Below, piece by piece: positions 39,439-52,738 of a stretch of 64,000 bases of DNA. The notes under the pieces are model-generated. The model was not told the origin of the DNA, did no database searches, and worked only from the letters and a program-made list of their open reading frames with translations. The position numbers and the translations under genes were made by a program. The first letter of the stretch is position 1. Each line of letters starts with the position of its first letter. Origin of the DNA: Betaproteobacteria bacterium (GTDB lineage Bacteria; Pseudomonadota; Gammaproteobacteria; Burkholderiales; WYBJ01); contig WHTS01000013.1 of NCBI GenBank assembly GCA_009377585.1, positions 1 to 64,000 on the forward strand. The letters run 5' to 3'.

Positions 39439-40128
39439 CTACGGCGGGGTATTGCTGCGAGAGCGTAGCGTCGCCGCCTCGCGCGCGAGCGCGCTGGCGA
39501 ATTCGCCCAATGCCTGCGCGGTAGCTGCGGCCACCGCGGATGGCTGCGCCGAGGCGAGCGGTACGTCGAGCTGCGTGCGACCCGAGTGATTGGCACGCTC
39601 GCCTCCGGCGGCGACGAAGCTCCAGCGCGCATCGAGTGCAAGACGGCCGTCGAGCGGGTCCAGCGTGAGAAGCTCGATCGTCAGGTCGGCATCGGGGATG
39701 CGGCCGTCGCCTTCGATCAACACGCGCCCGGGGCCGAGCCGTTGCGACAACGCGTCGCGCAGCACGCGCCCCGCGGCATCCGACAGCCGCTCGGCCCATT
39801 CGGCATCGGCCGCCACGATCAACGTCTCGCCTTGGCGGCCGGTCACGACCGGGAAGCCATCCAGATAGCCGGGTACGCTCACGTGCCGCAGCAGGATCGT
39901 CGGCTCCGCGGCTGAATCCGCTGCGGCGCTCGGCGCGGCGGGCGGCGGCGCCGGCAGCGCTACCAGCGTGGGCGGCGCGGACGCGCATGCAGCGAGCATG
40001 AGCAAACCCGATGTTACCAATGCCGCGCGAACAGTCGTCATCATCGTTCCCGAATGAGAATGCTCGGATCTCGAAGCAAGCATCATTAAACCCAATGTCA
40101 CGAATGCGCCGTGCACGGTCGTCATCAT
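39439..40128 (-). CDS. PqiC-like lipoprotein of the MCE system, with duplicated N-terminus
   Basis: A 229-residue lipoprotein, the likely ABC-type accessory lipoprotein (DUF330/PqiC) of the upstream MCE genes. The lipobox is LLMLAACASAP in the second signal segment (from ATG 40044). Family-like features are ILLRHVSVPGYLDGFPVVTG, WAERLSDAAGRVLRDALSQR and LTIELLTLDPLDGRLALDAR. An 84-bp tandem DNA duplication adds a first MMTTVHGAFVTLGLMMLA segment. ATG 40128 overlaps the MCE stop (ATGA), while ATG 40044 would give the normal-length lipoprotein. Which start is used is undecided. Confidence 0.82.
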   Translation of the reverse strand: MMTTVHGAFVTLGLMMLASRSEHSHSGTMMTTVRAALVTSGLLMLAACASAPPTLVALPAPPPAAPSAAADSAAEPTILLRHVSVPGYLDGFPVVTGRQGETLIVAADAEWAERLSDAAGRVLRDALSQRLGPGRVLIEGDGRIPDADLTIELLTLDPLDGRLALDARWSFVAAGGERANHSGRTQLDVPLASAQPSAVAAATAQALGEFASALAREAATLRSRSNTPP

Positions 40129-40154
40129 CGTCCCCGAATGAGAATGCTCGGATC
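39995..40154. repeat. 84-bp tandem duplication at the MCE/lipoprotein junction
   Basis: Segments 39995-40070 and 40079-40154 are the same sequence with about 15 differences, period 84 bp. The unit covers the last codons of the MCE gene and the first codons of the lipoprotein gene. It keeps frame for the lipoprotein. Confidence 0.9.
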
Positions 40155-41156
40155 GCGATCGGCGCGCTCGGCCAGGCTGCGCAGTCGCGCCGCCGCGGCG
40201 GCCAGATCGTCCACGGCGCGCTGGATCTGGATCATCGTGCGTCCGTGCGGGTCGAGCACCCGGCTCGCCCCTTCCAGCGCCTGCTGCGTTGTTTCGAGCG
40301 CCGGAGGCAGCGCAGCGAGTGCGGCATCGGCACCGGCGATGGTCTTGTCCACCTGCTGCAGCGTCGATCGGGCCGAGGCGGCCGTGCTGGCCGCTTCGCG
40401 CTCCAGCGTCGCGGCAAGGGCCTGCACCGATTGCAGCGTCTTGTCGAGCGAGCCGGCGCTGGTCGTCATCGTTGCGCGCACGGTGTCCGAAAGGCCCGCG
40501 ACTTCGGTGTCGACCGTCTTCAGGGTCTGGCGCAGCTGGGCAACGAGCAGCGGCAACTCCTGCATCGTCTGCGCGGTCTCGGGCGAGCCGAGGATGCGAT
40601 TGAGTGCGCCAAGCGTGCCCTGCAGTGCTTCCACTGCCGCGGGCAAGTCGATGTTGCGTGCCTTGCGGGCGAGCTCCTCGAGATCCGTGGGCACGGTCGG
40701 AATCTCCGTCGGCCAGGTGGTCTCGGCCTTCCGCGACTCGGCTTTGGGGCGAAAATCGAGATCCACGGTCAGGAGCCCGGTCACGAAATTCTGCTTCACC
40801 AGTTGCGCGGCGAGGCCGCGCTCAACCAGCGTGGGCACCAAGGTCTCGTCCATCGGCAGCTCGCCGCCGTAGAACTGCACCGAGTCGGGCACCAGGTCCA
40901 TGTCTACCTGCACGATGGTGCGGAAGACTTTCGGCTCGATGCGGATGCCGATCGCTTTCACCTGGCCGACCTCGACGCCCCGGTAAGTCACCGCGGCGCC
41001 GACCTGCAAGCCCGCAACCGAACCGCTGAAGAAACTGACTGCGCGCAGCCGATCGGCAAAGAACGCGCCGCGGCCGAACAACAAGATCGCAGCCACGATC
41101 AGGGCGAGCGCGCCGAGCACGAACAGGCCGATCGTGGTCGGTGCGCGCCGGCTCAT
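40125..41156 (-). CDS. MCE-domain (MlaD/PqiB-like) substrate-binding protein
   Basis: A 343-residue protein with an N-terminal membrane anchor (IGLFVLGALALIVAAILLFG) followed by the MCE domain: AVSFFSGSVAGLQVGAAVTY, RGVEVGQVKAIGIRIEP. Residues about 175-340 are a long alpha-helical, coiled-coil-rich region (LQGTLGALNRILGSPETAQT, VAGLSDTVRATMTTSAGSLD), as in proteins that bridge the periplasm. MCE proteins form rings and pass phospholipids between membranes. ATG 41156. The stop overlaps the start of the lipoprotein (ATGA). Gene order ABC permease, ATPase, MCE, lipoprotein is the standard MCE operon. Confidence 0.93.
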   Translation of the reverse strand: MSRRAPTTIGLFVLGALALIVAAILLFGRGAFFADRLRAVSFFSGSVAGLQVGAAVTYRGVEVGQVKAIGIRIEPKVFRTIVQVDMDLVPDSVQFYGGELPMDETLVPTLVERGLAAQLVKQNFVTGLLTVDLDFRPKAESRKAETTWPTEIPTVPTDLEELARKARNIDLPAAVEALQGTLGALNRILGSPETAQTMQELPLLVAQLRQTLKTVDTEVAGLSDTVRATMTTSAGSLDKTLQSVQALAATLEREAASTAASARSTLQQVDKTIAGADAALAALPPALETTQQALEGASRVLDPHGRTMIQIQRAVDDLAAAAARLRSLAERADRDPSILIRGR

Positions 41157-41265: not shown

Positions 41266-42048
41266 TCACGTCGCCGCCTCCACTTCGGGTCTCGATTCGA
41301 CGCCTCTGCGCGCGAGGAATTCGCGCACCTTCGTGCTCTGCGCGGCGCGTGCCAGCTCGGCCGGCGGGCCGAGCGCGATGGGGCGATGCGTTTCGCCGTC
41401 GAGGAACAGCATGCGGTCCGCCACGCTGAACAGACTTTCCAGCTCATGCGTCACCAGCACGACGGTGATACCGAGGCCCGCGCGCAGGCTCGAGATGAGC
41501 TCGTCCAGGCGACGCGAAGAGAGCGGATCGAGCCCGGCCGAGGGCTCATCCAGGAACAGCACGGATGGATCGAGAGCGAGCGCGCGCGCCAGCGCCGCAC
41601 GCTTGCGCATCCCTCCGCTCAGGCTCGCCGGATAACGCGCTTCGGCGCCGGAGAGCCCCACCAGCGCAAGCTTGAATCGCGCCAGCGCGCTGCGGGCGCC
41701 CGGTTGCGCATAGCCGTGCAGCTCCATCGGCAGCATGACATTGTCGAGCACGCTCATGGACGTCCAGAGCGCGCCGCCCTGGAACAGGACGCCGAAATCC
41801 GGCGCACCGTCGCGCGGCATGCCGTCGGGGCGTGCCTCGATCAGGATGCGCCCGGACTGTGGCTGCAGCAGCCCGATCATGGCCTTCATCAGGGTGCTCT
41901 TGCCCGAGCCGCTGTCGCCCACGATGGCGAAGATCTCGCCCGCGCCGATGTCGGCGTCGATGCCCGATTGCACCGGGTGTCCGTCGTAGCCGACCGTAAC
42001 GTCCTCGATACGGATCCGGGGCGGTATGTCGCTATATGACGTGTTCAT
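41266..42048 (-). CDS. ABC transporter ATPase of the MCE system (MlaF-like)
   Basis: A 260-residue ATPase. Walker A is VGDSGSGKST (43-52), the signature is SLSGGMRKRAALARAL and Walker B is PSVLFLDEPSAGLD. H-loop: VLVTHELESL. The GLDPLSSRRLDELI stretch is typical of MlaF-like lipid-transport ATPases. It pairs with the permease 3 bp upstream. Energises lipid movement through the MlaE-like permease, probably in or out of the outer membrane. ATG 42048. Confidence 0.94.
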   Translation of the reverse strand: MNTSYSDIPPRIRIEDVTVGYDGHPVQSGIDADIGAGEIFAIVGDSGSGKSTLMKAMIGLLQPQSGRILIEARPDGMPRDGAPDFGVLFQGGALWTSMSVLDNVMLPMELHGYAQPGARSALARFKLALVGLSGAEARYPASLSGGMRKRAALARALALDPSVLFLDEPSAGLDPLSSRRLDELISSLRAGLGITVVLVTHELESLFSVADRMLFLDGETHRPIALGPPAELARAAQSTKVREFLARRGVESRPEVEAAT

Positions 42049-42051
42049 GGC

Positions 42052-43173
42052 TCATACGTCGAGGGCATTCGCGCACATCGCGAACACCGCGTCGAGAACG
42101 ATGATGACGACGATCGAGCTCACCACGGCCATCGTGGTGGCCTCGCCGACACCGGCCGCACTGCGCGCGGCCCGCAGCCCGTAATGGCAGCCGATCAGCG
42201 CGACCGAGGCACCGAAGATCAGCGCCTTGAGCGCCCCTATCGCAAAATTTGCTCCCGCGATCGCATCGCGCGTCTGCACCATGTAGGCCGTAGCCGAAAT
42301 GTCCAGCAAGGGGGTCGCCACGAGCATCCCCCCCAGCAGGCTCAGCGTGCAGGCATAGACATAGAGCAGTGGCATCGAGACGCTCAGTGCGACCACCCGC
42401 GGCAGCACCAGAAACTCCACCGGCGACACGCCCAACGTGGTGAGCGCGTCGATTTCCTCGTTGCTCTGCATGGTGGCGATGCGTGCGGCGAAGCTTGCGC
42501 CCGTCCTCCCGGCCAGCACGACTGCGGTCAGGATCGGCGACAGCTCGCGCACCGCCGCGATGCCGACCAGGTCCGCCACGTAGATCCCCACGCCGAACGC
42601 ACGCAGCTGCACCGCGCCCACGAAAGCCAGGATGGCGCCCATCAGCAGGTTCACGATCCCGACGATGAAAAGCGCTCGCGTGCTCGACTCCGCGATCACG
42701 TCGAGCACTTCTGCGCGGCGCACCTTGGCCCGGCCGGCGACGAATCGCGGCAGCAGCAGGACGACTTCGCCCAGCAGATCGATGAAGCGCTTGACGCCGG
42801 CCGCGTGCGCTTGCGCCAGCAATCCTACGCGGGCGGCGAAACCGGGCCGCGGTGCAGTCTGCGCCGGGCGCAGCGACGATGGCCGTCGCGCCAGCGCCAG
42901 CAGATCGGCCATGTCGGCGGGCAGACCTTCGATGGCAATGGGATGGCCGGGACGTTCCAGGTGGCTCACGAGTTGCGCGAGGAACGCCGCATCGTGGCTG
43001 CGCCAGTGCCACTGCGGGGGCGCCTCGATGCGCACGATCTCGACCTCGCTCCCCGGTTCGATGCCCCATCGCTCCGGGGGCTGTGCGAGCAGCGCCGGAT
43101 CGATGCCCATCTCCGGGATCCGTACCGTCAGCGCACCGTTGTGTAGATGGAAGGTGGGCGCCACGCGATTCAC
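42052..43173 (-). CDS. MlaE-type permease with N-terminal STAS-like domain
   Basis: A 373-residue protein. The first 110 residues resemble a STAS-like domain (APTFHLHNGALTVRIPEMGI, EVEIVRIEAPPQWHWRSHDA) of the sort often fused to MlaE homologues. From about residue 150 the MlaE permease begins: LFIVGIVNLLMGAILAFVGA, ELSPILTAVVLAGRTGASFA, and TMQSNEEIDALTTLGVSPVE. Start is GTG 43173, which overlaps the TGA of the PLD gene as GTGA, so translation is coupled. The final helices and an ALDV end are normal. Forms the transmembrane part of the MCE transporter. Confidence 0.9.
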   Translation of the reverse strand: MNRVAPTFHLHNGALTVRIPEMGIDPALLAQPPERWGIEPGSEVEIVRIEAPPQWHWRSHDAAFLAQLVSHLERPGHPIAIEGLPADMADLLALARRPSSLRPAQTAPRPGFAARVGLLAQAHAAGVKRFIDLLGEVVLLLPRFVAGRAKVRRAEVLDVIAESSTRALFIVGIVNLLMGAILAFVGAVQLRAFGVGIYVADLVGIAAVRELSPILTAVVLAGRTGASFAARIATMQSNEEIDALTTLGVSPVEFLVLPRVVALSVSMPLLYVYACTLSLLGGMLVATPLLDISATAYMVQTRDAIAGANFAIGALKALIFGASVALIGCHYGLRAARSAAGVGEATTMAVVSSIVVIIVLDAVFAMCANALDV

Positions 43174-45329
43174 GTCTGGCGGGCCGTTGCCGGGAGAGCA
43201 CTGTAGCGCCCGAACAGGCGCCATACCAGCAGTCCCCCGCCGATCAGGACGGCGGTCACGACGGCGAGGCCTGCGAGCGTGTCTAGTCCCGGCGACGCGA
43301 TCACGGCCTGCACGCGGTCGACGAAGACAACCGTGAGCGCGATCCGCGGGGCGATGCCCAACACCGTGCCGAGCCAGAAATCGCGCCAGCGAATATACGA
43401 AGCACCGGCGACGAGATTGGTCTTGGGAAACGAGGCCACCGGCAGCAGGCGAATGAGCGCGACGGCGAGGATTCCTTTGCGGGCGAGCCGGCGCGTAATG
43501 CGGTTCAACTTGTAGCCGGCGAGCCGGCGCACGACGTGGCGTCCGAGCCGTTTTCCCAGGGCGTACATGACACCGGCACTCAAAAGCGCGCCGCCGAAGG
43601 CGAAAATGCCGCCGAACAGCGGACCGAACACGAGGGCGGTCAGCACTACGAGCACCGTGACCGGGAAACCGAGCAGGTTGCCGACCACGTAAAGACCCAT
43701 GGTCGCCGCCGCGGCCCAGTGCCATGTGGCGAAGGCGCGCATCGTTTCGACGATCGGCCCGAGCTCGATCCAGTCGCGCAACGGCGTCCAGCGCAACGCC
43801 GCGGCGAGCCCGGCGACAACGAGCAGGGTGAACAGGTAGCGGGCGACGCGGCCCGCGATCGATCGGTGCGCTTCAGCAGGCACGAACTCGGCCACGAGCT
43901 TGTCCGGGTCGACCGGACGTTCGGGATCGACCAGCGCACTGGCGGGCAGCAGCGCATCGGCGTCGTCCGGGACCACGGGATCGATCGGCTTCAAGGTGCG
44001 CTCGGCGCCTTGCAGGGCCTCGATGCCCCGGATGAGGCTGCCGCGATGACGCTCCATTTCCTGCGCGACGGCGCGCGGCGTGGTGTTCAGGTGTTCGGCG
44101 AGCAGCCGGTTGCGGAATTCCGCGATCGCTTGCCGGATGCGTGGCTCTCCGCGCGCTTCCAGGGCCAGGTTGCACTCGGTATCGAAGCCCATCGAACGGT
44201 TGTTGAAATTGGCCGACCCCACGCTCAGGAACTCGTCGTCAGCGATCAGCACCTTGCTGTGCACGTTGAGCAGATTCGGCCGCTGCAGCCGCGGGATGTG
44301 TGGATAGAGCAAGCGGTAGCGACCGTGGGCGTCCGCACGTACCAGGCGTCGATGCAGCAGCGCGCGCAGCACGCCCATCGTTCGCTCCTCCAGCCAGCCC
44401 TCCTCGGTGAGCCGCGACACGACCACGACTTCAGGTCCGTTCGTCTCTCGCAGTCGCCGATCGAGTGTCGCCCCCAGCAGGCTGGAGCTGAAGTACTGGT
44501 TTTCCAGGTATAGCGTGCGCCGCGCTTGCGCGATGGCGTCGGCATAGAGATGACGGATCTCCTGCACCGGGGTCCCGTTTCCGTACCCGGGGTCCGTGCG
44601 CGCAATCGCGACGTCGACATCGAACAGCTCCGCTCGCGTGGTCTCGGGCCACGGGTCGGCTGGCAGCTCGGTGTCGTCGTAGCTTGGATGCCGGCCGGTC
44701 GCGCGCACCCAGCGATCGCGGCAAAGATCGCCCAGAGCAGCCGCCACCGGGCCGGAGACGAGCGCCTGCACGTCGTGGTTGGGTCTGCAAAGACGACCTT
44801 GCGCATCGCGGCGATAGGGCTGGATCGGGCGGTGTTCGGGTGTGTCCCAGCGCCCGTGCGTCAGATCCAGCCCGCCGACGAAAGCCACCTCGTCGTCCAC
44901 GACCACCACCTTCTGGTGGTGCGAGCTGCCGACGGGGTGCTTGTCGTCGAGCCGGAATTCCAGGCGTGCACGCGGATGGGTCTTCCAGCCCATCTTGTAC
45001 AACGGCACCCACTCGCGATCGCGCGCGAAGATCATCGCGAAATCCCATGACAGCACGTACATGTGCAGGTGTCGCCGGCGCTTCACCACTTCTTTCAAAA
45101 ACTCTCCCAGCTCCTCCGGGTAGCCGTCTCCAGCGCCGTGCGGTACGAGCCGGATCCTGCTGTCGAAATCCCAGCCGAGAATGTGTACGCTGCGCCGGGC
45201 TTGCGCGATCGCCGAGCGCAGCGCCGCGAAATACGCGCTCGCATCGATCAGAAAGGCGAGCCGGTGCGCGCGCTCGATGCGCCAGCAGTTGCGCCCCGGT
45301 ACCAGGAGCCGTCCGCGTGCCTCGCCCAC
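43170..45329 (-). CDS. Phospholipase D/cardiolipin-synthase-like enzyme fused to a VTT (DedA/SNARE-associated) membrane domain
   Basis: A 719-residue fusion. Two PLD half-domains carry HxKxxxxD signatures: SSHHQKVVVVDD (His138, Lys140) and NVHSKVLIADDEFLSVGSAN (His357, Lys359, Asp364). From about residue 500 a polytopic VTT domain follows (YLFTLLVVAGLAAALRW, GLYVVGNLLGFPVTVLVVL, VFGPLFGGIFAFGGALLSAG, LIRLLPVASFPKTNLVAGAS). PLD enzymes hydrolyse or transfer phosphatidyl groups; VTT proteins scramble or flip lipids. Start GTG 45329 lies 5 bp after the HdeD stop. The 3' end overlaps the MlaE start by GTGA, placing lipid editing in the same operon as MCE transport. Confidence 0.92.
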   Translation of the reverse strand: MGEARGRLLVPGRNCWRIERAHRLAFLIDASAYFAALRSAIAQARRSVHILGWDFDSRIRLVPHGAGDGYPEELGEFLKEVVKRRRHLHMYVLSWDFAMIFARDREWVPLYKMGWKTHPRARLEFRLDDKHPVGSSHHQKVVVVDDEVAFVGGLDLTHGRWDTPEHRPIQPYRRDAQGRLCRPNHDVQALVSGPVAAALGDLCRDRWVRATGRHPSYDDTELPADPWPETTRAELFDVDVAIARTDPGYGNGTPVQEIRHLYADAIAQARRTLYLENQYFSSSLLGATLDRRLRETNGPEVVVVSRLTEEGWLEERTMGVLRALLHRRLVRADAHGRYRLLYPHIPRLQRPNLLNVHSKVLIADDEFLSVGSANFNNRSMGFDTECNLALEARGEPRIRQAIAEFRNRLLAEHLNTTPRAVAQEMERHRGSLIRGIEALQGAERTLKPIDPVVPDDADALLPASALVDPERPVDPDKLVAEFVPAEAHRSIAGRVARYLFTLLVVAGLAAALRWTPLRDWIELGPIVETMRAFATWHWAAAATMGLYVVGNLLGFPVTVLVVLTALVFGPLFGGIFAFGGALLSAGVMYALGKRLGRHVVRRLAGYKLNRITRRLARKGILAVALIRLLPVASFPKTNLVAGASYIRWRDFWLGTVLGIAPRIALTVVFVDRVQAVIASPGLDTLAGLAVVTAVLIGGGLLVWRLFGRYSALPATARQT

Positions 45330-45334
45330 TGGGC

Positions 45335-45925
45335 TCAGGTTCCGCGCGGATGCGCGCTGGGATCATGAAAGCCGCTGTGCGGATCCGAATGCTTTTGCCA
45401 GCGGCGCGCGCGAAACGCCAGCACCAGCAGCAGGATGCCGGTTGCGACCGCATAGAAACTTACGAACAATGCGAGCGCCAGCGCGCCGGCCGGCGGAAAC
45501 ATCAGCACCAGAACGCCGAACACGATCGACACCACGCCGGTGAGGGCCAGCAGCCACTCATGCTCGATCTCCTTGCGCAAACGGATGGCGACGGCGATTT
45601 CGAGGACGCCCGTCACCAGCGCATTGGCCGCCATCAGCAGCACCAACGCGAACAAGGTGGCGCCGGGCTGGAACACCGCGATCACGCCGACGACCAGGCT
45701 GACGAGGCCGAGCAGCAGCATCAGCCACCAGCCGCCGTTCATGGTGCGATGCTTGAGCGCGCCGGCCACGGTGACCGCCCCGACGAGCAGCGCGAACGCG
45801 GCGAACAGCGAAACCAGCACCAGCAACGTGATGCCGGGCCAGATCAAGGCCAGTATGCCGAACAGCAGCGCGATGGCGCCGTGCAGCGCGAGCATCCACC
45901 AGGTTCTCGATAGCAGTTGTTCCAT
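45335..45925 (-). CDS. HdeD-family membrane protein
   Basis: A 196-residue six-helix membrane protein of the HdeD (acid-resistance) family. Characteristic segments are RTWWMLALHGAIALLFGILA, LIWPGITLLVLVSLFAAFAL, LGLVSLVVGVIAVFQPGATL and GVVSIVFGVLVLMFPPAGAL. HdeD confers acid resistance in Escherichia coli at high density by an unknown mechanism. ATG 45925 sits inside the extended 3' end of the NodT-like gene as sequenced; if that gene truly stops at 45962, the spacing is a normal 36 bp. The next gene begins 5 bp after the stop. Confidence 0.92.
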   Translation of the reverse strand: MEQLLSRTWWMLALHGAIALLFGILALIWPGITLLVLVSLFAAFALLVGAVTVAGALKHRTMNGGWWLMLLLGLVSLVVGVIAVFQPGATLFALVLLMAANALVTGVLEIAVAIRLRKEIEHEWLLALTGVVSIVFGVLVLMFPPAGALALALFVSFYAVATGILLLVLAFRARRWQKHSDPHSGFHDPSAHPRGT

Positions 45926-47403
45926 AGCGTCTCCTTTGCGGTCACAGTGATGGACGGACAGCTACTGTTGCACCCGCCGTTCCCCAGGCCCCCCCCCGGA
46001 CGCGACGGCTCGACATCGGCCGCGATGGCAGCCGGGTCCCATCCGCCTCCGAGAGCGCGGTACAGCGTCACGAGCGAAGTCAATTGGGTCTCGCGTGCCT
46101 GAACCTGCGCGAGCTCGGCGGTGAAAAGATTGCGCTGCGCATCGAGCACCTCGAGGAAACTCGAATAGCCGTTGCGGTAACGGGTCTCGGCGAGCGCCAG
46201 CGTGCGTTCGGTGGACGCGACCTGGGCCGCCTGGGTCGCATGCTGCGCGGCCGCGCCGCGAATCCGGATGAGCGCGTTCTCGACTTCCGCGAACGACGCC
46301 TGGACGGTCTTGGCGTACTGCGCGAGCAGCTCCTGCTGCTGCGCGGTGAGCAACTCCACCTGCGCGCGGGTGCGCCCGGCGTTGAAGATGGACTGCGCGG
46401 CGGCGGCACCGACCTGCCAGAACAGCGCCCCGCTGCTGAGCAGGTTCGACAGCGACGAGCTCGCCCAGCCGAAGGCGCCGGTGAGCGCTATGGTCGGAAA
46501 GTACAATGTCCGGGCAGCGTCGATGCGCGCGTTCGCCGCCAGCAGATTCTGTTCCGCCGTCAGGATGTCCGGGCGCCGGGCAAGCAGCACCGAAGGCAGG
46601 CCGACCGGGACGTCGGGGGGAGCGGCGAACGCCATGACCGGGACGCCGCGCGGGATCTCGTGCGGAAAGCGGCCGAGCAGCAATGACAGCGTGCTCTGCT
46701 CCACCCCCGTCTGCTGCTCGAGGTTCGTGATGACGGCCGCGGCGTTCTGCAGCGCGACCTCGGCTTGGCGATAGTCGAGCTCCGAGGTGACCCCGCCGCG
46801 CCAGCGCCGCTCGGCCAGGCGCAGCGCATCCTCGCGCACGCGCAGGGTGCGCTGCGCGATCTCCAACTGCAGGTCCAGGCTGCGCAAGGTGAAGTAGGAG
46901 CGCGCGACGTCGGCGATGAGGGTCAGGCGAACGGTCTCGCGCCCATAGGCAGTGGCGAGGAGATCGGCCCGCGCCGCGTCGGTCGAGCGTTGCAGCCGGC
47001 CCCACAGATCGACTTCGTAGGAGATCAGGCCTTCGAGCGCGAAGTCGTTGGCGATCCTCGGCGCACCGGGCAGCGTGACGGACGAGCGGGCGCGAGCGGC
47101 GCTCGCCTGCGCGCTGACCGTGGGAAACTGTTCGCTGCGGACCAGTGCGAGGTTGGCGCGCGCCTGGGCTACCCGCGCTGCTGCGATTGCGAGATCCCTG
47201 TTGCCGTCCAGGGCCGCGACGACGAGCTCTTGCAACACCGGGTCGCCGAACGTGCTCCACCAGACCGTGAGCGGCGCCGAGCTGGTATCGACCCCATCGA
47301 GGTGCCAGGCAGCGGGCATCCCGGCATCGACCGGCGGGTGATCGGTGCGCAGTGCGGCGCAACCGGCGAGCACGAGAACCCCCATGGCGAGCGCTCGCCT
47401 CAT
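45844..47403 (-). CDS. NodT-family outer-membrane efflux lipoprotein, 3' end suspect
   Basis: A 519-residue OprM/NodT-like channel for an RND pump. The lipoprotein signal has VLVLAGC (LAGC lipobox). Both outer-membrane-efflux repeats are present, e.g. AAARVAQARANLALVRSEQF, GLISYEVDLWGRLQRSTDAA, LLAANARIDAARTLYFPTIA and ETQLTSLVTLYRALGGGWDP. After PSRPGGG the tail (NGGCNSSCPSITVTAKE...) is unlike the family and runs into the HdeD gene by 81 bp. A run of nine C on the plus strand (45989-45997) is at that point. One extra base would end the protein at 45962 as GPGERRVQQ. ATG 47403 overlaps the RND stop by ATGA. Confidence 0.9.
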   Translation of the reverse strand: MRRALAMGVLVLAGCAALRTDHPPVDAGMPAAWHLDGVDTSSAPLTVWWSTFGDPVLQELVVAALDGNRDLAIAAARVAQARANLALVRSEQFPTVSAQASAARARSSVTLPGAPRIANDFALEGLISYEVDLWGRLQRSTDAARADLLATAYGRETVRLTLIADVARSYFTLRSLDLQLEIAQRTLRVREDALRLAERRWRGGVTSELDYRQAEVALQNAAAVITNLEQQTGVEQSTLSLLLGRFPHEIPRGVPVMAFAAPPDVPVGLPSVLLARRPDILTAEQNLLAANARIDAARTLYFPTIALTGAFGWASSSLSNLLSSGALFWQVGAAAAQSIFNAGRTRAQVELLTAQQQELLAQYAKTVQASFAEVENALIRIRGAAAQHATQAAQVASTERTLALAETRYRNGYSSFLEVLDAQRNLFTAELAQVQARETQLTSLVTLYRALGGGWDPAAIAADVEPSRPGGGLGNGGCNSSCPSITVTAKETLWNNCYREPGGCSRCTAPSRCCSAYWP

Positions 47404-49946
47404 GGCTTGTTATCGTCCGCGGGCGCGTTGGCGGTCGGCGCGGTATGGGGCGATCCGCGCTGTCTTCCGGCCATCAGCGTGTAGAACAGCGGGACGAACA
47501 GGATCGCGAGCGCGGTCGCTGCGAGCATGCCGCCGACCACGCCCGTTCCGATCGAATGCCGGCTGCCCGCACCCGCACCGCTCGCGACTGCCAGCGGCAG
47601 CACTTCGGCCGTGGTCGCTTCGATGGCCGAGAGGGCTTCGCCCGAGCTGTAGCCGGGAGCGGCGGAGCCGATCACGCGCGCGGAGGGAAAGCCGTTGAAG
47701 CGCTCGACCTGGCCGGCGCCGGTCACGCGTTCGACCTGGATCATGCTGGCGAGCGGAATCATCTCGCCCGCCGAGGAGCGCACGTGGATGCGGCCGATGT
47801 CCTCGGGCTGCGAGCGGAACGGCGCCTCGGCCTGCAGCTGCACCCGGTAGGTGCGGCCAAAGGCGTTGAAGTCATTCACGTACAGGGCGCCGAGGATGGT
47901 CTGGAGCGAATCGAAGATGTGGTTGAGCGGCACGCCATAGGCTTTTGCCCGCTCGCGGTCGACGTCGACATAGAGCTGCGGTATGTTGGCGCGAAACTGA
48001 GTGGACACGCCGCTGAGCTCGGGACGCTGATTGGCTGCGTCGACGAGCTTTTGCGTCGCCTGCGCGATTTCGACACTGTCCGCGCCGCCGAGGCTCTGGA
48101 TATTGGCCTCGAACCCGCCGGTCGCCCCGAGGCCCGGAATGGGCGGCGGGTTGAAGGCGAGCACGATCGCCTCCTTGATCGCCGCGGTCTGGGCGAAGAA
48201 CCAGGGGATGAGACTTTGCACGTCGGCGCCCGGCGCGGTGCGCTCGTCCCAGTGCTTGAGCCCGATGAACAGCGTCGCCGTCGCACTGTTGAGGCCGCCG
48301 CCCAGGAGATCGAATCCGACCAGTTGCACGACATTCTCGACATGCGGATTGTCCATCGCCATGCGCACGACGCGATCCGACACCTCTTCGGTTCGAGCGA
48401 GCGCCGATGCGTCGGGCAGCCGGATGGACGCGAAGAACACGCCCTGGTCCTCGGCCGGAACGAAGCTCGTGGGCACCGCACGGAAAAGGCCCACGGTAAG
48501 CGCGATCATCACGCCGAACAGAATCAGGGCGAGCGCAGAGCGCCGGATGAAAAAGGCGACGCCGGCGGTGTAGCGGCCAGTGAGCCAGTCGAAGCCGCGG
48601 TTGAAATAGCGGAACAACCCGCGCGGCTCGCGACGTTCGGGCTTGAGCATGACGGCGCACAGCGCCGGGCTCAGCGTCAGCGCCACCAGCCCGGAAATGC
48701 CGACCGATATGGCGATGGTGATCGCGAACTGGCGATAGAGAGCACCAGGCCGAGCAAGGTGAGCGTATTGACGGTGAAGCCGAGCGCCAGCATGCCTGCG
48801 AACGTGCCGATGAGCGAGACCGGAACGGCCAGCATCGGGATCAGCGTGGCGCGCCAGTTCTGCAGGAACACGTACACCACCACCAGCAGCACCAGCAGCA
48901 TCGCCTCGATCAACGTTTTCACGACCTCCTTGATCGAGGCGTCGATGAAGATGGTGGTATCGAACGGGACCGTATACACCATGCCTTCGGGAAAGCGCTG
49001 TGCGAGCTCGTCCATGCGCGCGCGCACCACCCGGGATACGTCCAGCGCGTTCGCGCCCGACTGCAGGTACACCCCCATGTTGACGGCGGTTTGTCCATTT
49101 CACCTTGCCGATGAAGTCGTAGCCCTGCGCGCCCAGCTCGACGCGCGCCACGTCCTTCAGGCGCAGCAGCGATCCGTCCGGGTTCGCACGCAGCACGATG
49201 TTCTCGAACTCGCTCGTTTCCAGCAGCCTGCCCTTGGTGGTGACGGTGTAGGTGAACGGTACCTTGCCGCCGTTGGGCGGCGCGCCGATCTGTCCGGCCG
49301 CGAACTGCGAGTTCTGCTCGCCGATCGCTTGAGCGATATCGGAGGTCGTCAGCGCGTATTGGCGCATCAGGTCGGGCTGGACCCAGATGCGCATGGCGTA
49401 GTTCTGGGTGCCGAAGAGAGAGGCATCGCCCACGCCGGGAATGCGTTTGAGCTCGTCGATGACGTTGAGCTGGGCGTAGTTGGTGAGCTCGACCGCGTTG
49501 TGGCGTCCGTCGGGCGACAGCAGCGAGGCGATCAGCACGATGTTGGTCGAGCGTTCGCGAACCACCACGCCGAGGCGGCGGACCTCCTCGGGCAGGCGCG
49601 GCTCGGCGAGCCGCACCCGGTTGTTGATGTCGACCGTGGCATCGGCCGGATCGGTGCCGATGTCGAGGGTCACCGTGATGGACGCGGAACCCGTGCCCGA
49701 AGTCGCGCTCATGTAGAGCATGCCTTCGGTGCCGTTCACCTGCTCCTCGATCGGCCCGGCCACGACGTCGGACATCACCTCCGCGCTCGCGCCCGGATAG
49801 TTGGCGCTGATGGTGACGGTCGGGGGCGAGACCTCGGGAAATTGCGCGACCGGGAGCGTGGTGAGCGACACCAGCCCGACCAGCACGATGACGATCGACA
49901 GGACGGTCGAGAAGATCGGCCGGTCGATGAAGAAGCGCGAGAACAC
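47400..49946 (-). pseudogene. RND (HAE1-type) inner-membrane efflux pump with deletions and compensating frameshifts
   Basis: An AcrB/MexB-like pump. The N-terminus is normal (FFIDRPIFSTVLSIVIVLVG, VNGTEGMLYMSATSGTGSA), as is the C-terminal half of the porter (PNPPPIPGLG, RANIPQLYVDVDRERAKAYG). Three lesions are visible. Near 49091-49100 a 5-base loss at a repeated ATGGA shifts frame. The true frame (48740-49078: [31 protein letters not shown]) ends at about 48735, where about 55 residues including the Asp-Asp proton-relay helix are deleted. Near 47592-47605 the frame jumps from EVLP to LAVASGAGAG, losing about 130 residues (four helices). The product should not pump. Confidence 0.85.
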
Positions 49947-51279: not shown

Positions 51280-51496
51280 GGTGTCGAGCGCCCGCACGGG
51301 AGCGCCGGGCCGGTCACTGCGTCGCGCAGGCGTATCACTGCGCGGGTGAGTCCATCGCCCGGACGAAAACGCTGTCGCGTGGGGCAACTCGCGTGCCCGG
51401 TTCCTGGAGAGCAGCGGACTCCGGGCTCCGCCGGTTCCTGCAGCGCGGGGCGCTCAAGTCGCCCCGCGGGGTCTGGAGCGCTCCGCCCCACGCGGT

Positions 51497-52738
51497 TCAG
51501 CGACGCGGCACGATCTTCCACAGCTCGCCGTCCGATTCGTCGGTCACCACGTAGAGCGCGCCGTCGGGTCCCTGGCGAACGTCCCGCACGCGCTGGCCGC
51601 GCTCGGCCAGCAGATGCTCTTCGCCGCGCACCCGATTGCCTTCGATCACGAGCCGTACCAGGCGGCGCTCCTTGAGCGCGCCGATGAAAAGACTGTCCTT
51701 CCAGGCCGGGAACAGGCTGCCCGTGTAGAACTGCGCGCCGGAAGGCGCGATCACCGGGTCCCAGTAATAGCTTGGCTGCTCAAAGCCCGGCCGGTCCGGG
51801 ACCGAGCCGGTGATCGGCTGTCCGGAATATTCGCGCCCGTAGGCCACTACCGGCCAGCCGTAGTTCTCGCCCTTGACGATGAGGTTGAGCTCGTCGCCAC
51901 CGCGTGCGCCGTGCTCCACCACCCAGAGCCTGCCCTTCGAATCGAATGCCGCCGCCTGGACATTGCGATGTCCCAGCGACCAGATCTCGGGCAGCGCATC
52001 CGGCTTGGCGACGAACGGATTGTCCTTCGGCGCCGAGCCGTCCGGCTGGATGCGCATGACCTTGCCGAGATGGCTGTCGAGCTGCTGGGCATACTTGCGC
52101 ATCGCCGTGACCGAGCGTTCGCCCGTGGTGACGTAGAGCCTGCCGTCGGGCCCGAATGCAAGCCGCGAGCCGTAGTGCATCGTGCCGTCATAGGTCGGAA
52201 GCACGCGGAAGATGACGCCCACCTGCTCCAGGCTGCGGCGGTCCGCGGACAGAACGCCTCGCGCCACACTGGTGCCGTTGCCGCCCTCGCGCGCTTCGGA
52301 GAAGCTGAGGTAAATCGTCCGATCGGATTCGAATTGCGGGCTCAAGGCCGCATCGAGCAGACCACCCTGCCCGCGCGCGTCGACCTTCGGCACGCCCGCG
52401 ATCGGCGCTCCGAGCTCGCCCTCGGCGCTCACGATGCGCAGGCGCCCCGTCTTCTCCGTGACCAGGACGTCACCGCCGGGCAGCGGCTCGACGGCCCAGG
52501 GCTGAACCAGTCCCTTGGCCAGCACGACAACCTCGAACGCGACGTTCGACTTCGCTGCGCAGGTGCGTGTCTGACCCACGAAGGCGGGCTTCTGTTCGGA
52601 GGCGTTCGCCGGGCGCGTCTCCAGTGATGGACAGGCACCGGGGCGCGCCGGCGCGCCCACAGCCGGCGTCTGCACTGCCGCCTGCGCGGCAAGCAGCAGC
52701 ACGATCGATACCGATAGCATTCGCATGAGAGTTCGCAT
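51497..52738 (-). CDS. PQQ-dependent sugar dehydrogenase (soluble aldose type)
   Basis: A 413-residue secreted beta-propeller of the glucose/sorbosone dehydrogenase family. The signal peptide is MLSVSIVLLLAAQAAVQ. The body shows the family motifs GLVQPWAVEPLPGGDVLVTE, GQGGLLDAALSPQF, NGTSVARGVL, GSRLAFGPDGRLYVTTGER, HLGKVMRIQPDG, SLGHRNVQAAAFD and VVEHGARGGDELNLI, which shape the PQQ and Ca sites. It should oxidise an aldose in the periplasm using PQQ. No pqq genes are nearby. It is upstream of the efflux array on the same strand with 217 bp between. Confidence 0.92.
   Translation of the reverse strand: MRTLMRMLSVSIVLLLAAQAAVQTPAVGAPARPGACPSLETRPANASEQKPAFVGQTRTCAAKSNVAFEVVVLAKGLVQPWAVEPLPGGDVLVTEKTGRLRIVSAEGELGAPIAGVPKVDARGQGGLLDAALSPQFESDRTIYLSFSEAREGGNGTSVARGVLSADRRSLEQVGVIFRVLPTYDGTMHYGSRLAFGPDGRLYVTTGERSVTAMRKYAQQLDSHLGKVMRIQPDGSAPKDNPFVAKPDALPEIWSLGHRNVQAAAFDSKGRLWVVEHGARGGDELNLIVKGENYGWPVVAYGREYSGQPITGSVPDRPGFEQPSYYWDPVIAPSGAQFYTGSLFPAWKDSLFIGALKERRLVRLVIEGNRVRGEEHLLAERGQRVRDVRQGPDGALYVVTDESDGELWKIVPRR

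Follow-up and report, generated by a model that had tools for sequence, protein, structure and literature searches.

The window, a 64,000-nucleotide stretch spanning positions 1 to 64,000 of contig WHTS01000013.1, carries on its minus strand a gene encoding a phospholipase D (PLD) fused to a VTT domain, hereafter PLD-VTT, placed ahead of an Mla/MCE transporter operon. The genes of this region and the parts of the fusion protein are:

39439 to 40128, minus strand: gene for a PqiC-like auxiliary lipoprotein, same transporter operon (domain search)
40125 to 41147, minus strand: gene for an MCE/MlaD-domain protein, same operon, start unsettled (domain search)
41266 to 42048, minus strand: mlaF-type ATPase gene, part of the transporter operon (Pfam/NCBIfam)
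42052 to 43173, minus strand: mlaE permease gene, adjoining PLD-VTT in this genome alone (Pfam, synteny)
43170 to 45329, minus strand: PLD-VTT fusion gene, GTG start, 719 amino acids (ORF listing, Pfam, alignment)
43317 to 43667, minus strand: VTT domain PF09335, residues 555-671; two re-entrant hairpins predicted (Pfam, models)
43344 to 43346, minus strand: Arg662, a Gly in nearly all relatives (G662R; alignment)
43431 to 43433, minus strand: residue 633 (P633S; alignment, VTT model)
43788 to 43859, minus strand: first predicted transmembrane helix, residues 491-514 (model)
43860 to 43949, minus strand: interdomain linker, residues 461-490, poorly ordered (pLDDT <50 over most of it)
43950 to 45305, minus strand: phospholipase D catalytic region of eukaryote-type fold, residues about 9-460 (fold and model)
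44238 to 44261, minus strand: second HKD motif, H357-x-K359-x4-D364 (alignment)
44490 to 44504, minus strand: ENQYF motif (residues 276-280), which aligns with ENQFF in human PLD1/PLD2
44895 to 44918, minus strand: first HKD motif, H138-x-K140-x4-D145, invariant in the 31-sequence alignment
45335 to 45925, minus strand: gene for a DUF308/HdeD-type membrane protein, immediately upstream; its end lies 5 nt from the start of PLD-VTT

A PLD with both HKD motifs and a VTT domain in a single chain had been predicted from the sequence, and the Pfam search proposed as a check, together with the intact motifs, confirmed it. The PLDc active-site motifs (best stretch, residues 136-160) and PLDc_2 (residues 264-406) were found above their gathering cut-offs, as was VTT_dom PF09335 (E 3.6e-21, 76.3 bits against a gathering score of 33.9). 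An AlphaFold2 model built on 31 sequences (mean pLDDT 80.6) showed a PLD domain up to about residue 460, a loose linker of about 30 residues, and a helical membrane domain whose first predicted transmembrane helix lies where the domain boundary had been expected, at about residue 500. In the N-terminal half, neither a clear signal peptide nor, ahead of residue 490, any strongly hydrophobic segment was found.

The possibility of an artefactual join at about residue 500 was excluded, since collinear versions of the fusion occur in many independent assemblies, complete replicons included. Thirty other sequences aligned collinearly with PLD-VTT without frame breaks, and the full chain was recovered by tblastn, with 40-51% identity across 96-98% of the protein, from replicons of Cupriavidus, Caballeronia, Burkholderia, Mycetohabitans, and Azospirillum. 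It occurs in dozens of independent assemblies of Betaproteobacteria, Gammaproteobacteria, Nitrospira, and Desulfuromonadales, and in five of 113 other genomes from an even sample of the class. Most of the 39 loci encoding relatives, which belong to several phyla, span the whole chain, while eight (L040-L047) match over the PLD half alone; the three of these that were examined encode a single terminal hydrophobic segment and lack the VTT domain. G+C at third codon positions is uniform across the PLD part (0.81), the VTT part (0.84), and mlaE (0.84). A phage origin was rejected, no match being found among 50,697 phage records. The fusion is thus real, widespread, and visible in databases, where relatives are already annotated as "VTT domain-containing protein". 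It is apparently uncharacterised in the literature searched, in which no paper describing a PLD-VTT fusion was found; the SNARE-associated and PLDc proteins reported in PMC6355987 are separate gene products.

Two further PLD-VTT genes, 41% identical to the window copy and each with relatives in same-genus genomes, are present in this genome. One of them (L087; C13:62000-80000) is located on the same contig about 26 kb away and stands, like the window copy, directly behind an MFP-RND-OEP efflux set, an arrangement not seen at other family loci. In one relative (G041, L094), PLD-VTT is broken across several frames and a hydrolase gene still adjoins it.

The enzyme had been expected to make or remodel cardiolipin or phosphatidyl products. 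Among solved structures, human PLD2 and PLD1 come nearest by sequence, and the family profile gave 126 bits for human PLD1 against 53, 20, and 15 for E. coli ClsB, ClsA, and ClsC, respectively. The top fold match was also human PLD2 (7svp_D; Z 33.8, rmsd 3.1 over 423 residues), followed by bacterial phosphatidylserine synthase and Streptomyces PLD (Z about 24-28). Both HKD motifs, together with many residues around them, show little or no variation across the 31 sequences, which carry ENQYF or close variants; no ENQ[YF]F-type motif was found in E. coli ClsA/B/C. PLD-VTT thus contains the two HKD motifs, the ENQ[YF]F-type motif, and the catalytic fold of eukaryote-type PLDs. The alternative that it is a PLD-superfamily cardiolipin synthase fused to a scramblase draws on the HKD chemistry common to PLD-type synthases, on the same kind of hydrolase neighbour beside E. 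coli clsB, and on the NCBIfam cardiolipin synthase models, which match all 31 members weakly, ClsB being the best NCBIfam match. However, the window protein reached only 47 bits against a curated cut-off of 281 in one of these models and 39 against 290 in another, so that membership of the ClsA/ClsB families was rejected, and eukaryote-type PLDs outscore the synthases in the profile comparison and rank first in the fold comparison. We consider this alternative quite improbable. From the profile bits, the fold ranking, and the weak cardiolipin synthase scores, we therefore call the PLD half a eukaryote-type PLD, for which cardiolipin synthesis is possible and not indicated.

The VTT domain had been described as DedA-like and of a lipid-scramblase type. 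DedA proteins in the strict sense (COG0586) are UndP flippases and are set apart from COG0398, whose members have no acidic residues at the tip of the first re-entrant hairpin and have been proposed as possible phospholipid scramblases (PMC10127716). According to the alignment, residues 541-570 of PLD-VTT, the segment examined for the first re-entrant hairpin, contain no Asp or Glu, the criterion being that of the same study. The domain is thus closer to the TVP38/COG0398 type than to the DedA/UndP-flippase type, and "DedA-like" in its narrow sense is not supported. The subfamily that it resembles is the one proposed to scramble phospholipids, and flipping by PLD-VTT is predicted from family membership. 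No solved structure homologous to the VTT half was found by profile search, and its transport role is accordingly argued from the family. Structural comparison (Foldseek/VIA) returned weak matches, the best of which, at Z 4.2, was an MlaE chain, a match that we read as chance. A separate model of the VTT half (pLDDT 81.7) showed helix breaks at FPVT and PVASF, as two re-entrant hairpins would give. At the second re-entrant tip, the family consensus is RLxPIAPFxVVN and the window copy reads RLLPVASFPKTN.

The window copy departs from the other sequences at five positions that are at least 90% conserved, including P633S, which sits at the tip of the second hairpin, and G662R, which also alters a nearly invariant VTT position. 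Its branch in the tree is 0.4 long, compared with 0.06-0.12 for its three sisters. These substitutions and the long branch raise the possibility of an altered VTT domain in this copy. The dN/dS to the nearest relatives, obtained with synonymous sites close to saturation, was about 0.17-0.31 for the PLD half and 0.37-0.44 for the VTT half; these values below 1 suggest that both halves appear to be under selection and that the gene does not look decayed.

These data also bear on a serious rival reading, in which the VTT domain does no more than anchor the enzyme in the membrane or regulate it, and PLD-VTT is a membrane-bound PLD that flips nothing. Alphaproteobacterial homologues do without a VTT domain and have one C-terminal hydrophobic stretch in its place, which would make flipping dispensable for the enzyme in general and is why we take this reading seriously. 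It would also fit the faster evolution of the VTT half than of the PLD half in every pair compared, and the loss of the two nearly invariant residues from the window copy. Yet ten VTT-half positions are invariant in the 31 sequences, which come from several phyla, and these include prolines and glycines at the predicted hairpins that an anchor would not need. Overall, we judge that a role as anchor or regulator alone is possible, if somewhat unlikely.

The gene following PLD-VTT had been described as overlapping it. The overlap amounts to 4 nt (GTGA) if mlaE starts at the GTG at 43173, whereas an alternative GTG three codons later, equally allowed by the sister-species alignment, leaves a short gap. 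Either arrangement makes co-transcription likely, and PLD-VTT and mlaE are probably co-transcribed in this genome. The MlaE protein (42052-43173, minus strand) has an N-terminal extension of about 150 amino acids with no Pfam match above the cut-off, which is kept in the sister species and is possibly an MlaB/STAS-like part.

The same strand, the 4-nt overlap or very short gap, and the probable co-transcription would favour the original prediction that lipid made and flipped by PLD-VTT is handed to the MlaE permease. Wider synteny argues against it. We searched for mlaE within about 5-6 kb, where the contig allows, of 42 other PLD-VTT loci and found it at none; the window itself was thus the single positive among 43. 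Among the 43 loci with enough downstream sequence, 34 instead had a gene of the PF03372 endonuclease/exonuclease/phosphatase family downstream of PLD-VTT (24/28 on genome contigs, 5/8 among relatives, 5/5 in the class sample, and 0/2 in this genome). In Thiogranum (L025, L026, and L030), PLD-VTT is separated from the hydrolase gene by one gene, for an NhaA-type Na+/H+ antiporter. The nearest homologues (62-64% identity) carry the hydrolase gene in place of mlaE, and the three betaproteobacterial sequences with which the window protein clusters (100/100 support) all have it. A sister species (G001) keeps orthologous mlaE and mlaF genes (81% and 80% identical), preceded by glucose/sorbosone dehydrogenase and P-type ATPase genes, and no close PLD-VTT was found in its assembly, which is 87% complete. 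A conserved coupling of PLD-VTT with MlaE was thus ruled out by synteny. These comparisons suggest that it was most likely in this lineage that PLD-VTT became placed ahead of mlaE, and the gene orders indicate a pairing without a lasting evolutionary tie. We therefore regard delivery of lipid to MlaE as highly improbable.

Upstream of PLD-VTT, the RND pump gene (47400-49946, minus strand) is damaged: its match to PF00873 is split into four pieces, one of which lies in a different frame and includes a TGA, and none of them covers profile positions 396-456 and 840-976. It is either a pseudogene or affected by sequencing errors. A tRNA-Leu(caa) gene (51420-51515, plus strand) adjoins the start of the efflux operon. 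A genomic island next to this tRNA gene was considered, but the 3' end of the tRNA gene is directed away from the cluster.

Our favoured reading, to which we give about an even chance, is that PLD-VTT is a PLD of the inner membrane that remodels lipids, held there by a VTT domain that may also carry lipid from one leaflet to the other, with a hydrolase partner in most bacteria. The data establish the domain content, the motifs, the fold class of the PLD half, the conservation of the fusion and of its hydrolase neighbour, and the adjacency to mlaE confined to this genome, whereas the activity, membrane side, flipping, and substrate are inferred as follows. The N-terminal two-HKD domain would most likely face the cytoplasm, given the lack of a clear signal peptide or preceding transmembrane segment. 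It would form a phosphatidyl-enzyme intermediate on an inner-leaflet phospholipid and then transfer the phosphatidyl moiety to an acceptor, either water or another alcohol, yielding phosphatidate or a new phospholipid. The TVP38/COG0398-like VTT domain would hold the enzyme in the membrane and probably allow passage of substrate or product through the bilayer. PLD-VTT may, in most bacteria, work with the downstream-encoded endonuclease/exonuclease/phosphatase-family hydrolase, a joint pathway suggested by analogy with E. coli ybhP-clsB-ybhN. In this genome, a rearrangement or transfer probably placed it ahead of the Mla/MCE operon, which it need not supply.

A more far-reaching version, in which the eukaryote-type PLD remodels inner-leaflet lipid, its own VTT domain delivers the product across the membrane, and the hydrolase completes the pathway, possibly wired to the Mla-type transporter here, seems to us unlikely. 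If true, it would describe a lipid-remodelling module that is widespread and has so far escaped study. A lipid-remodelling enzyme joined in one chain to a member of the scramblase superfamily offers a test of the cargo of COG0398/TVP38-type VTT proteins, because the enzyme half gives a clue to which lipid is moved. Its conserved association with a YbhP-like hydrolase would point to a pathway, for which no assay was found in the literature searched. The specific claim concerning MlaE cannot be generalised.

Among known systems, the protein WP_330555647.1 of Burkholderia multivorans has the same two-domain chain (46.8% identity over 98% of the query), but the next gene encodes the hydrolase and not mlaE, and its NCBI name covers the VTT half alone. 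Human PLD1 and PLD2 (6ohr, 6ohm, and 7svp) share the PLD fold, the two HKD motifs, and the ENQFF-type motif (Z 31-34, about 20% identity); they carry PX/PH modules and lack a VTT domain, whereas PLD-VTT is a predicted integral membrane protein. The alphaproteobacterial PLDs of about 511-514 amino acids (Sulfitobacter, Monaibacterium) are 37-41% identical over the PLD half and share the NCWR N-terminal start with the window protein. They differ in their single C-terminal hydrophobic segment without VTT domain, and the hydrolase neighbour was not found beside them.

In E. coli, the PLD-superfamily enzyme ClsB is encoded between a PF03372-family hydrolase (ybhP) and a membrane protein (ybhN), and ybhP-clsB-ybhN is treated as one operon (PMC9241728). 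The hydrolase of one PLD-VTT locus (L009) shares 29% identity with YbhP (E 4e-19). However, the E. coli components are encoded by separate genes, ClsB is distant from PLD-VTT (24% over 260 amino acids), and YbhN is annotated as PF03706, not VTT. Finally, the COG0398 DedA/TVP38 proteins, relatives of TMEM41B/VMP1, also contain PF09335 and likewise have no acidic residue in the first hairpin; 90% of them are single-domain proteins, and their commonest partners are oxidoreductase domains, PLD being unmentioned (PMC10127716).
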